A stretch of DNA of 37,296 nucleotides, from contig WAPO01000026.1 of NCBI GenBank assembly GCA_015520705.1, positions 1 through 37,296 of the forward strand, given 5' to 3'. Position 1 is the first letter of the stretch; every line of letters begins with the position of its first letter. This stretch comes from Thermococcus sp. (GTDB lineage Archaea > Methanobacteriota_B > Thermococci > Thermococcales > Thermococcaceae). Below the pieces are notes generated by a model that did not search any database, was not told the DNA's origin, and saw only the letters and a program-made list of their open reading frames with translations. Below are positions 32,897-37,296 of this stretch, piece by piece. A program made the position numbers and the translations under genes.

Positions 32897-33709
32897 TTAA
32901 AATGCCCCACTTCCCGGGCCGCATATATTTGCAAATGGACAGATCGAGCAGTTTTCTGTATATGGTTGAAGATATGGTTCGCCCTTGACAGATTTTGTTA
33001 TCTCCTTGGCTTTCTCAATGGCCTCCTCATCTCCTTCAAGGACAAGGGTAACACTGCCTTCAGCTCCACCCGCACCCCCTGCTGCTATTGGTATCGCTTC
33101 AACTCCAGCCAGAATTCTGTATGCCTCAACCTCCGTGACCGGGTGGGAGTGCGGAATTGGAACGAGTGCCGAGTAGAGACCTGTTCCCCAGTCAAAGGAG
33201 TAGATGCCTGTGAGCTTTGCACTTTCTTCAACCGGCGTCGGCACGAACTTCTCAAGGCTAACCGGCGTTATTGTGAAGACGCCCTTTGTTATCGTCCATC
33301 CAAAGGTCTTTCCTATTGTCCCGCCGTCCGGAGCTGCGGCAAAGACTGCCACATTCCAGTTGATATCTATTGCGTTGGCTCCCTTTATGAACACATCTTT
33401 TGGCCCCATCTGCTTGAGCGCCTCCAGAGGATCGTCGAAGGGCTCGCCCTTGTAGAGGACGAGGTGCTTGGGCCAGGTCGCCTTTGGTGTAACACAGGTT
33501 CTACCCTTGCTTATCACCCCGACCGTCCACTTCTCCTTCTCAATCTTTCTCTCAAGGAGCTCCTCAGCTACGTAAGCCGCAGTCGTTCCAGTGGCGATAT
33601 ACACGAAGCCATCCCTGAGGGCGTGCTGGACTTCATTCATAGACACAACTGCCTTAGCTATCAAGCGCTTGCTCTCCGGCGGGGTTAATGTCACCAAAGC
33701 TCTTTTCAC
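32897..33709 (-). CDS. Conserved hypothetical protein with C-terminal CxxCx5C motif
   Basis: MKRALVTLTPPESKRLIAKAVVSM... ending in NCSICPFANICGPGSGAF; GTG start 3' of GGTG (ORF track start 33718). Confidence 0.75.
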   Translation of the reverse strand: MKRALVTLTPPESKRLIAKAVVSMNEVQHALRDGFVYIATGTTAAYVAEELLERKIEKEKWTVGVISKGRTCVTPKATWPKHLVLYKGEPFDDPLEALKQMGPKDVFIKGANAIDINWNVAVFAAAPDGGTIGKTFGWTITKGVFTITPVSLEKFVPTPVEESAKLTGIYSFDWGTGLYSALVPIPHSHPVTEVEAYRILAGVEAIPIAAGGAGGAEGSVTLVLEGDEEAIEKAKEITKSVKGEPYLQPYTENCSICPFANICGPGSGAF

Positions 33710-33763
33710 AGCTACCACCGCATTAGGATGATATCGAGAGCATATTAATGTTTTGGAACAAAA

Positions 33764-33792: not shown

Positions 33793-34185
33793 CTATTCAC
33801 CAAAGAGGTCAAGGCACACCTGACACCTGCCGGGGTCAATTTCAGGATCGATGTGGGAGTGAAAAGAACATACATAGCCTTTTCCAAGCATCTCTAGGGA
33901 AATAAGCACAAGTCGAGAGTGAAGTTCATACTCGCCGGGAGGATTGGTAATTATCTCCATGGCCAGCTTTCTGAGCTCCTCATCAATATCCTCAAAGCTT
34001 TTCACATCTATCAGCGCTCCCCTGTCCATCTTCAGATATCTGGAAACAGCTGACTGGGTTATGTGCAGAAGCCTTGCTATATCCATCTGTTTGAGTCTGT
34101 GCTCTCGATAGAGAATTTCAACCAGACGCCTCCTAAGGGAGGGGTAGACATACTTAGCAGCAACTTCAAATGCATTGGTCTTCAT
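33793..34185 (-). CDS. HTH transcriptional regulator with C-terminal Cys/His cluster
   Basis: LVEILYREHRLKQMDIARLLHITQSAVSRYLKMDRG HTH; C-terminal VCSFHSHIDPEIDPGRCQVCLDLFGE. Confidence 0.8.
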   Translation of the reverse strand: MKTNAFEVAAKYVYPSLRRRLVEILYREHRLKQMDIARLLHITQSAVSRYLKMDRGALIDVKSFEDIDEELRKLAMEIITNPPGEYELHSRLVLISLEMLGKGYVCSFHSHIDPEIDPGRCQVCLDLFGE

Positions 34186-34194
34186 AGTAACAAT

Positions 34195-34210
34195 TATGAC
34201 ATGTGGCATA
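34195..34210. promoter_or_regulatory. Operator-like site A: TATGACATGTGGCATA
   Basis: Imperfect copy next to the TATA-like element of the HTH gene. Confidence 0.55.
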
Positions 34211-34304
34211 TATAAGGATTTCGGAGTTTTAAGAACTACATTTTTGCAGATGTTATTAAACGTTGATCTTTCTATTCTTCCATAGGATGCTCCCTATACA
34301 GGTG

Positions 34305-34322
34305 TTATGACATAAGTCATAA
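34305..34322. promoter_or_regulatory. Operator-like site B: TTATGACATAAGTCATAA
   Basis: Seven-bp arms TTATGAC / GTCATAA around a 4-nt spacer. Confidence 0.65.
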
Positions 34323-34389
34323 ATCTCTAACGATTTCCCTTCCCTTCCTTTATATTTTTGACAAAAATACATAACTTTATAAAAAGAAT

Positions 34390-34408
34390 ATGTGAAAAAT
34401 TATCACAT
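34390..34408. promoter_or_regulatory. Second inverted repeat ATGTGA-N7-TCACAT in hcp upstream region
   Basis: atgtgaaaaattatcacat read directly. Confidence 0.35.
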
Positions 34409-34497
34409 CTTATTCAATTTGCTCCCATAAATTTTTCCTTTTAGGTTAAGAAACCACAAGGTTTTTATGAAATGAGATTCATAGATTAATTGCAGGA

Positions 34498-34513
34498 TAT
34501 GACAATTGTCATA
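34498..34513. promoter_or_regulatory. Operator-like site C: TATGACAATTGTCATA
   Basis: Perfect 16-bp palindrome 18 bp upstream of the hcp ATG, downstream of TATA-like GGTTTTTATG. Confidence 0.75.
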
Positions 34514-34531
34514 AAATGGAGGTGTATAAAA

Positions 34532-35902
34532 ATGGTGATAAAGATGCCCGAAAATTTGGAAATGCTCTGCAATCAGTGCTCGATGAGCCTTGCGGGAGGA
34601 TGCACCGTTAGAGGAGTCTGCGGCAAAGACCCAGATCTCCACTCACTCCAGGAGGCTCTGTTATACGGCATTAAAGGGACGTCTGCCTACTACTACCACG
34701 CCCTTGAGGTCGGCTACGACGACCCGAGGATTGGCCACTTTCTGGCAGAGGCGCTCTATTCGACGCTCACAAACGTCAACTTTGATAAGAACCGCTTCCT
34801 TGAACTCATCCTTGAAAACGGAAGGGTTCACCTTGAGGCGATGAAGCTCCTTGATAAGGCCTACGTCGAGACATTTGGAAGACCAGAGCCGGTGAAGGTT
34901 CCCACCGGCAGCTTTAAGGGGCACGGCATACTCGTTACAGGCCACAGCTACAAAGCTCTTTATGAACTCCTCAGGCAGATTGAGGAGAAGGGCCTTGATG
35001 ATGAGCTTAAAGTTTACACCCATGCGGAGATGTTCCCGGCTCATGCCTATCCGGAGCTCAGAAAGTTCAAAGCCCTCTACGGCAACTGGGGAGGCTCGTG
35101 GCTCTATCAGAAGAAGGAGTTTGCAGAGTTCCCGGGCGTTATTCTGGGCACAAGCAACTGTGTCCAGCAGCCGACGAAGGCTTACAGGGACAGGATTTTC
35201 ACCGTTGGCATAGCCGGCCTTGAGGGAGTTCCCCACATAGAGGACTACAACTTCGAGCCGCTCATAAAGCGCGCCCTTGAAACGCCGAGGATGGAAGCTT
35301 ACGACGGCGGAAAGCTCCTCACTGGCTTCCATCACACCAACGTTCTGGCCATGAAGGACAAGCTGATAGAGCTGATTCAGGAGGGCAAGATAAGGCACAT
35401 CTTCGTGGTCGGCGGCTGTGATACACCGCACAAGGGTATGGGCTACTACGAGAGGCTCACCGAGCTGATCCCCGATGATGCGCTCATACTCTCCGCTGCC
35501 TGCGGCAAGTTCCGCTACAACGCGAGGAACTACGGCACCATCGAGGGCATCCCGCGCTTTCTCGACTTCGGTCAGTGCAACAACGTCTATTCGATAATTG
35601 AAATCGCCGTCGCTCTGGCAAATGAGCTCGGAGCAGATGTGAACTCACTTCCGGTCAGCATAGTCCTCAGTTGGATGGAGCAGAAGGCAGTGGCGATACT
35701 CTACTCACTCCTCTACCTCGGGATCAAGGGCATATACCTCGGACCCAAGCCGCCCGAGTTCCTGACGCCAGGGGTCTTTGAGATACTGAGGAAGCAGTTC
35801 GACCTCAGGCTTACAGGCGATCCGGAGAAGGATTTGAGGGACATGCTCAACAAGGGCGTACAAGTAGAGGAGGGCTCCGCCCTTGCGGAGGAGCTCGACT
35901 GA
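34532..35902 (+). CDS. hcp: Hybrid cluster protein (hydroxylamine reductase), short form
   Basis: CNQCSMSLAGGCTVRGVCG N-terminal Cys motif, GTSNCVQQP, VVGGCDTPHKGMGYY, SAACGKFRYN, FGQCNN, SWMEQKAV. Confidence 0.96.
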   Translation: MVIKMPENLEMLCNQCSMSLAGGCTVRGVCGKDPDLHSLQEALLYGIKGTSAYYYHALEVGYDDPRIGHFLAEALYSTLTNVNFDKNRFLELILENGRVHLEAMKLLDKAYVETFGRPEPVKVPTGSFKGHGILVTGHSYKALYELLRQIEEKGLDDELKVYTHAEMFPAHAYPELRKFKALYGNWGGSWLYQKKEFAEFPGVILGTSNCVQQPTKAYRDRIFTVGIAGLEGVPHIEDYNFEPLIKRALETPRMEAYDGGKLLTGFHHTNVLAMKDKLIELIQEGKIRHIFVVGGCDTPHKGMGYYERLTELIPDDALILSAACGKFRYNARNYGTIEGIPRFLDFGQCNNVYSIIEIAVALANELGADVNSLPVSIVLSWMEQKAVAILYSLLYLGIKGIYLGPKPPEFLTPGVFEILRKQFDLRLTGDPEKDLRDMLNKGVQVEEGSALAEELD

Positions 35903-36033
35903 CCCTTTTTCTTTTTACTCCGCCACTGAGGCCGGTGACAGAACCCAGCTTTTGCCGTGAAACATCTGCGGCATAAAATAGAGTGCCAGAAAGAGATTTA
36001 AAGGTCTTTATGAAGTGAGGTGCGGGTGAAAAA

Positions 36034-36480
36034 ATGGATGAAAAGCTCATCCTCTTTGTGTGCATTAAGAACTCGGCCAGGAGTCAGATGGCGGAAGCGT
36101 TTTTCAACAACTTAAACGATGGCATGCACTTTAGAGCCATGAGTGCAGGAACAGAACCCGCTGGTGAGATAGACCCGCTTGCAAGGGAAGTAATGCGTGA
36201 AATAGGAATCTCGATGGAGAACCAGAGGCCTAAGCCCTACACGAAAGACATGGCCGATAGAGCCTATCTTGTCATAACTATGGGCTGCCTTGACAGGTGC
36301 CCCTACGCTCCCCCGGAAAAAACGTGGGACTGGGGTCTTGAGGATCCTTATGGAAAACCGGTTGAGACATATCGGGCGGTAAGGGATGAAATAATGGAGA
36401 GGGTTTCGAGGCTCGTAAAAGATTTGAAGTCTGGAAAGAGCAGGGAGGAAATAATTGGAGGAGGTCTTTTTGCCCTCTGA
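36034..36480 (+). CDS. ArsC-like / low-molecular-weight phosphatase family protein
   Basis: LFVCIKNSARSQMAEAFF P-loop; MGCLDRCPYAPPEKTWDWGLEDP as in thioredoxin-coupled ArsC. Confidence 0.85.
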   Translation: MDEKLILFVCIKNSARSQMAEAFFNNLNDGMHFRAMSAGTEPAGEIDPLAREVMREIGISMENQRPKPYTKDMADRAYLVITMGCLDRCPYAPPEKTWDWGLEDPYGKPVETYRAVRDEIMERVSRLVKDLKSGKSREEIIGGGLFAL

Positions 36481-36486
36481 CTCTTC

Positions 36487-36972
36487 TCATGTCTCTTTTA
36501 ACCTTCTCAGCTCCCCCATCATCTCCTTAAAGCGCTCGTCATTCATTCCAAGAAGTTCCTTGGCTTCTTTCAGCGTTACTGTCCTCGCGAGGGTCTTTCT
36601 CATGAGCGGATTTTCTAGAGGTGAGAAACCGTACCTTACGAGGATTTTGAGAGATTCGGGGTGGGCTTTGAGTAACTTCGCCACATTGGTGTTTTCTGTT
36701 ATCTCTTCCAGCTTATCATCGCACTCCTTAACCTGCAAGTTGAGCTCCTTTGATTCCTCAGTCTTTATAACTTTAAGAACAAAGGAACCCGAGAGTTCCT
36801 TTACCTCAACACTGTAACCAGACTCTTCAAGCTTTGGTATTATGTCCACAAAGGGTTTATCCCCAATCACCTCAAGGGTTTCCCCGGCTTTTAGCTTTCC
36901 AAGTGCCTCTATTATCATAACCGCCGGCTGTGGTGCTTTTAAACCTCTAACATCAAGCATCATATTCCTCAC
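36487..36972 (-). CDS. DUF2249/TusA-like domain fused to DUF1858-like domain
   Basis: MLDVRGLKAPQPAVMIIEALGKLKAGETLEVI (no Cys at the TusA position) followed by NVAKLLKAHPESLKILVRYGFSPLENPLMRKTLARTVTLKEA. Confidence 0.8.
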   Translation of the reverse strand: MRNMMLDVRGLKAPQPAVMIIEALGKLKAGETLEVIGDKPFVDIIPKLEESGYSVEVKELSGSFVLKVIKTEESKELNLQVKECDDKLEEITENTNVAKLLKAHPESLKILVRYGFSPLENPLMRKTLARTVTLKEAKELLGMNDERFKEMMGELRRLKET

Positions 36973-36982
36973 CGCTTTAAAC

Positions 36983-36998
36983 TATGACATTAGTCATA
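36983..36998. promoter_or_regulatory. Operator-like site D: TATGACATTAGTCATA
   Basis: Six-bp arms, overlaps minus-strand TATA-like GGTTTATATGAC of the 36487-36972 gene. Confidence 0.7.
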
Positions 36999-37045
36999 TA
37001 AACCTTACTGGTCGAAAATGGGTAGAAAGACTTAAAAATGGTTAA

Positions 37046-37061
37046 TATGACATATGTCATG
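37046..37061. promoter_or_regulatory. Operator-like site E: TATGACATATGTCATG
   Basis: Core ATGACATATGTCAT is a perfect 14-bp palindrome just downstream of CTTAAAAATGG and upstream of the ATG at 37075. Confidence 0.7.
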
Positions 37062-37074
37062 AAGGTGATAGAGA

Positions 37075-37296
37075 ATGACAGAGTTACTTAAGACCCGTGA
37101 ATATAAGAAAGAGCAGCTGAAAAAGTTGCTCCTTAGAATCCATGGAGGAGAGGACGTTAACAGGCTTAAAGAGGAGTTCCGCCAGGTTTTAAGCGGCATC
37201 TCGCCACTTGAGATACCTCTCATAGAGCAGGAACTCGTTAAGGAAGGTGTCTCCGCCAAGGATATAGCCAAGATGTGTGATTTACATGTCGAGCTC
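37075..37296 (+). CDS. DUF438-like protein, 3' truncated by window end
   Basis: Open frame not in ORF track: MTELLKTREYKKEQLKKLLLRIHGGEDVNRLKEEFRQVLSGISPLEIPLIEQELVKEGVSAKDIAKMCDLHVEL. Confidence 0.8.
   Translation, partial: MTELLKTREYKKEQLKKLLLRIHGGEDVNRLKEEFRQVLSGISPLEIPLIEQELVKEGVSAKDIAKMCDLHVEL

Follow-up and report, generated by a model that had tools for sequence, protein, structure and literature searches.

The stretch of DNA analysed here (37,296 nucleotides, hereafter the window) carries five copies of the palindrome TATGAC-N4-GTCATA in front of genes for a small helix-turn-helix (HTH) regulator, the hybrid cluster protein Hcp and two further proteins. With a probability of roughly 0.7, these five sites are the operators of a small, self-regulated repressor regulon run by the 130-aa HTH protein, which would bind them directly and respond, through a putative cofactor, most likely to NO and possibly to O2. 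The operators, their conservation, the membership of the regulon and its loss together with the regulator are all computed observations. The regulon would serve NO (possibly O2) detoxification and the repair of iron centres.

Operators and target genes in the window

The features of the locus are as follows.

33796-34185, minus strand: regulator gene, 130 aa, with an N-terminal HTH and a C-terminal C106-x2-H109-x11-C121-x2-C124 set (proposed sensor)
34195-34210, minus strand: operator A, TATGACATGTGGCATA, one mismatch, ending 9 bp before the regulator ATG
34208-34215, minus strand: TATA-like element of the regulator, TTATATAT, read from the sequence, with the adjoining consensus kept in relatives
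34306-34321, no strand assigned: operator B, TATGACATAAGTCATA, perfect, lying between the hcp promoter and the divergent promoter of the regulator
34462-34469, plus strand: putative hcp TATA-like element, read from the sequence
34498-34513, plus strand: operator C, TATGACAATTGTCATA, perfect, ending 18 bp before the hcp ATG
34532-35902, plus strand: hcp, hybrid cluster protein, 456 aa (Pfam Prismane, 3e-113; NCBIfam TIGR01703, 642.9 bits)
36487-36972, minus strand: TusA-DUF1858 gene, with a GTG at 36972 and a likelier ATG start at 36963, after GGTGAGG
36983-36998, minus strand: operator D, TATGACATTAGTCATA, perfect, upstream of the TusA-DUF1858 gene
36996-37002, minus strand: TATA-like element of the TusA-DUF1858 gene, TTTATAT, read from the sequence, with TTTATATG conserved in relatives
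37031-37039, plus strand: putative TATA-like element of the DUF438 gene, CTTAAAAAT, read from the sequence, with cTTAaAA conserved in relatives
37046-37061, plus strand: operator E, TATGACATATGTCATG, one mismatch, covering the point where transcription of DUF438 is expected to start
37075-37296, plus strand: 5' part of the DUF438-hemerythrin-PAS gene, cut by the window end and continued in contig C92

Each of the five copies named in the original prediction was confirmed at its place, and the exact coordinates agree with its view that all of them are located in promoters. Across genomes the operator consensus is TATGACAYRTGTCATA. Operators A and D each have 3 bp in common with the TATA-like element of their gene, and operator C lies just downstream of the expected hcp transcription start. 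Operator B, which had been assigned to hcp, is placed between the two divergent promoters, about 190 bp upstream of C and away from both starts, and is a doubtful hcp site. The start-to-start distance between D and E is 63 bp (about six helical turns) in most genomes and 87 bp in a few, and for A-B-C two main sets of spacings were seen, ~51/80 and ~111/192.

Hcp is most likely an NO reductase (PMC13056359), and in many bacteria its gene is under regulators related to NO (PMC1274295); the reason for its retention in strictly anaerobic archaea is an open question (PMC10210160). The product of the gene behind operator D had been described as DUF2249-like/DUF1858. Its C-terminal DUF1858 domain was found by Pfam, but the N-terminus is rather a TusA domain (45.6 bits, cut-off 28.6), with DUF2249 at cut-off only (29.5 bits). 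Contig C92 begins with the same 151 bases that end the window (37146-37296) and is therefore the continuation of the window's contig; the whole protein thus joined has DUF438, hemerythrin and PAS_10 domains. Between hcp and TusA-DUF1858, this genome has an ArsC/LMWPc-type gene (36034-36480); lacking its own operator, it was rejected as a target.

Specificity, conservation and joint loss of the operator

At up to two mismatches, TATGACN4GTCATA occurs five times in the window against 0.75 expected, a count that 1 of 100 shuffles reached, and B, C and D are the only perfect copies in the whole genome (2.27 Mb). Genome-wide, the plain pattern gave 10 matches at up to one mismatch and 85 at up to two, against 7 and 72 for a reversed control. 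Because the mismatch-tolerant pattern fails to separate the sites from background, a sequence model was used instead. The training sites of the first model, R1, took in the same genus and perhaps the window, making it possibly circular; a held-out model, R2 (alignment A4), was therefore built from sites of other genera only. On the window's genome at E<=10, R2 returned A-E and nothing else (150 of 619 first-look candidates fully scored). Thus, the sites are real and the motif, once modelled, is not equally frequent at random, but the simple pattern first put forward is not specific at up to one mismatch and gives no proof alone. Other places with at most one mismatch (C1, C66, C118, C154 and C203) had no score in the models and were rejected, that at C66 lying inside a coding frame.

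For conservation, ~20 kb around the regulator was taken from 60 further Thermococcaceae genomes, and the same locus anatomy was found on either strand. The operator in front of the regulator ends 9-10 bp before the ATG in 51 of 61 loci and has at least three mismatches in the other 10; hcp has an operator within 320 bp upstream in all 43 loci, perfect in 41. An operator also stands before the TusA-DUF1858 gene in 41/41 loci and before the DUF438 gene in 43/53, and operator B is kept in many genomes. Ten permuted palindromes, run on the same stretches as a control, gave 0.2-1.5 matches per set. In the twelve specified columns of the motif, pairwise identity was 0.92-0.98, versus 0.39-0.69 in the 50 bp upstream (TATA elements included). 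Conservation upstream of orthologous genes, on which the proposal depended, therefore extends over ~60 genomes. The plain pattern with one or two mismatches is common in the genome, as would be expected if the sites were chance palindromes in A+T-rich promoters, but the held-out model yields the five sites only and their conservation is position-specific, which together rule this reading out and leave it a negligible probability.

Outside the Thermococcales, a metagenome-assembled genome (MAG) labelled Thermoproteota encodes a regulator (53% identity) and a DUF438 protein (50% identity), with operators at both. A second MAG, with the label Desulfurococcales, carries the regulator, and hcp with an operator at two mismatches. 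These loci may be binning errors, more readily so in the Desulfurococcales-labelled MAG.

In nine of the ten DUF438 loci that lack an operator directly in front, a flavodiiron gene lies between operator and DUF438 gene, and the operator thus leads an operon of flavodiiron and DUF438 genes. The tenth, G017, is without the regulator, and its DUF438 promoter reads AATGTGACTGTGAAGGTGAT compared to TATGACATATGTCATGAAGGTGAT in the window, an eroded operator. In G005, hcp is ~540 kb away from the regulator and two perfect operators are kept. The motif tracks genes, not location. When R1 was run over 30 genomes, some of which had supplied part of its training sites, a new site appeared in G093 (C6:42202), 10 bp upstream of another type of flavodiiron gene; given this overlap, the independent results of the run are the absence of other matches and the G093 site only. 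The third flavodiiron gene lies close to the regulator in both G005 and G009, with the 2-mismatch operator TATGACATGTGGCAAA 33 bp before its start; in G007 the corresponding sequence is degraded. Altogether, three arrangements put the operator before a flavodiiron (NO/O2 reductase) gene.

Further sites were seen in these genomes. The near-perfect operator TATGACACATGTCATC stands between nucleoside-phosphorylase-like and orc1/cdc6-like genes in two genomes of genus g3 (L187:1556 in G005, L186:1688 in G007), perhaps near a replication origin. In G009, TATGACAGGTGTCATT lies between ferritin-like and hydrogenase-maturation-protease-like genes (L192:1698); as hcp in G005 has a similar neighbourhood, this operator may have stayed behind in G009 after a loss of hcp.

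Regulator and targets are also lost together. Of the 11 good genomes that lack an intact regulator, none has hcp (G065, whose contig ends inside the regulator, was set aside), and DUF438 is present in 1 of these 11 versus 60 of 62 regulator-bearing genomes (Fisher p=1e-9, with no correction for kinship or linkage). R1 matches numbered 0, 0, 0 and 1 in four genomes without the regulator, and broken or partial copies of the regulator were found in G011, G027 and G049. This joint loss partly reflects linkage, since regulator and targets are mostly neighbours.

The regulator and its relation to known systems

A Pfam search with the regulator gave weak HTH_24/HTH_5 matches only, none above the curated cut-off. 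Its structure model is all-helical (pLDDT 87); it matched no solved structure at E<=0.001, and the sequence had no significant match in the PDB. Residues C106, H109, C121 and C124 are invariant in 61/61 orthologues, and the C-x2-H-x11-C-x2-C tail is probably a metal or Fe-S sensor site. Such a C-x2-H/C-x2-C set could also be a structural zinc site. The [2Fe-2S] regulator IscR has a ligand set of three Cys and one His, and because the regulator's residues match this set, an Fe-S centre is favoured over zinc.

Paralogues of ~300 aa align to regulator residues 8-111 (HTH region). Distant small archaeal HTH relatives (L219, L220, L223, L251, L253 and L255), most of them with C-x2-C, C-x2-H and C-x2-C, adjoin nadA, ferredoxin, cysteine desulfurase or arsenite-permease-like genes, and these relatives are possibly a family of Fe-S regulators. 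Tentatively, and at somewhat under even odds, the regulator might belong to a family of small HTH proteins spread across the archaea, as the first member to be recognised and to have its operator and regulon mapped. The family would bind an Fe-S or other metal centre via the C-x2-H/C-x2-C tail, and the regulator would have evolved its NO sensing independently of bacterial FNR/CRP, Rrf2 and NorR. A conserved gene on the regulator's strand, 75 bp downstream (32900-33718), has a cysteine-rich end, NCSICPFANICG, and is found downstream of the regulator in several relatives as well.

Among bacterial systems, HcpR of Geobacter and related delta-proteobacteria recognizes the motif wyTTGACnnnnGTCAArw (PMC1274295). 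HcpR controls hcp in anaerobic bacteria, and the archaeal sites are upstream of hcp too. The original prediction held that the two motifs differ, which is true of the flanking base (A rather than T before TGAC, ATGAC versus TTGAC) but not of the TGAC-N4-GTCA core, identical in one HcpR group. HcpR is a CRP/FNR protein, whereas in the 130-aa archaeal regulator no CRP/FNR fold (cNMP-binding domain plus Crp-type HTH) was found, Pfam giving weak general HTH matches and the model being all-helical. As the two proteins are unrelated, the shared core looks like convergence.

The targets of the nitrite/NO-sensitive, Rrf2-family repressor NsrR, which controls hcp and RIC di-iron proteins in bacteria (PMC1274295, PMC9268430), make up a similar set, in which hcp is joined by RIC/YtfE, a di-iron repair protein of which the DUF438-hemerythrin-PAS protein is an analogue alike in outline. 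Fe-S sensing, for which the invariant tail is the candidate site, would be a further likeness. NsrR differs in its motif, the promoters here are archaeal, and Pfam found no Rrf2-type domain in the regulator. The regulon appears to work like the NsrR and HcpR regulons; with neither an Rrf2 nor a CRP/FNR domain found in its regulator, it belongs to neither family.

Archaeal regulators of the ThiR type, ThiN-fused HTH proteins, are homologous in the HTH and middle region, and many of the relatives have a C-x2-C/C-x2-H/C-x2-C stretch; the window's genome encodes one such paralogue (326 aa, ThiN 9e-50). In contrast, the initial C-x2-C pair is missing from the regulator, its targets are different, and no ThiN domain was found in it by Pfam. 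SurR, a small HTH redox regulator of Thermococcales with a GTTn3AAC operator and a CxxC switch, is set apart by these features, both motif and tail being different. The TrmB-type thiol regulator OxsR of Haloferax, active in oxidative stress (PMC9426492), is likewise a single-domain archaeal stress regulator, but Pfam found no TrmB domain in the protein studied here. An earlier description of the motif or regulon was not found among the open-licence papers covered, and both are probably new.

Mechanism, signal and significance

Under the proposed mechanism, a dimer of the HTH protein encoded at 33796-34185 would bind the consensus palindrome and block TBP/TFB or RNA polymerase, as A and D overlap TATA boxes while C and E are placed at the start or just beyond it. 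Four units would thereby be kept low: the regulator's own gene, hcp, the TusA-DUF1858 gene and the DUF438-hemerythrin-PAS gene. The C-terminal Cys3-His site, which probably forms an iron-sulfur or other metal centre, would read the signal, most likely NO and possibly O2; loss or change of this centre would release the DNA and allow the NO/O2-reducing enzymes (Hcp and, in some species, flavodiiron proteins) and the di-iron repair-type protein to be made.

Archaeal repressors act at TATA elements and at or just past transcription starts. With A and D on TATA-like elements and C and E at or past starts in nearly all genomes, the operator positions suggest repression. The remote and widely conserved operator B is what would fit an HTH protein that activates, or that represses or activates depending on the site (e.g. 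via B), but the placing of the other four makes this improbable. It is also conceivable that another transcription factor binds the motif and that the adjacent HTH gene is merely a target, as regulators need not adjoin their sites; the loss of regulator and motif together across genomes, and the motif that accompanies the regulator outside Thermococcales too, make this very unlikely.

The NO reading is based on the targets, namely Hcp and flavodiiron proteins, and from the control of hcp by NO-related regulators in bacteria. The redox/nitrosative regulon originally proposed is thus supported, with flavodiiron genes joining in three ways and a hemerythrin domain in the DUF438 protein. The same regulon and repressor might instead form an oxidative-stress circuit of a strict anaerobe, with oxygen or peroxide rather than NO as the signal. 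In favour of such a circuit, flavodiiron proteins can reduce O2 as well as NO, and O2 is bound by hemerythrin domains. Hcp, however, is known best for NO and is the largest enzyme among the conserved targets, and the sites examined yielded no established target that encodes a superoxide reductase, peroxidase or rubrerythrin (one G009 site adjoins a ferritin-like gene), so that an oxygen signal, while possible, is rather unlikely. A response to sulfur/persulfide stress or to the general Fe-S cluster state, with NO incidental, would draw on the TusA domain, which points to sulfur chemistry, and on the nadA, ferredoxin and cysteine desulfurase genes beside distant relatives of the regulator. However, those relatives are distant in sequence and have two more cysteines, and nitrosative stress fits hcp and the flavodiiron genes better, leaving this response quite unlikely.

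The operator, by tying hcp to flavodiiron and hemerythrin proteins, gives Hcp a context in archaea. Motif and candidate regulator are now open to test in the genetically tractable Thermococcus and Pyrococcus, and an uncharacterised archaeal regulator family is assigned a putative role. The Thermococcus group would thus have a nitric-oxide/oxygen defence circuit run by a protein family unrelated to the bacterial counterparts that do the same job.
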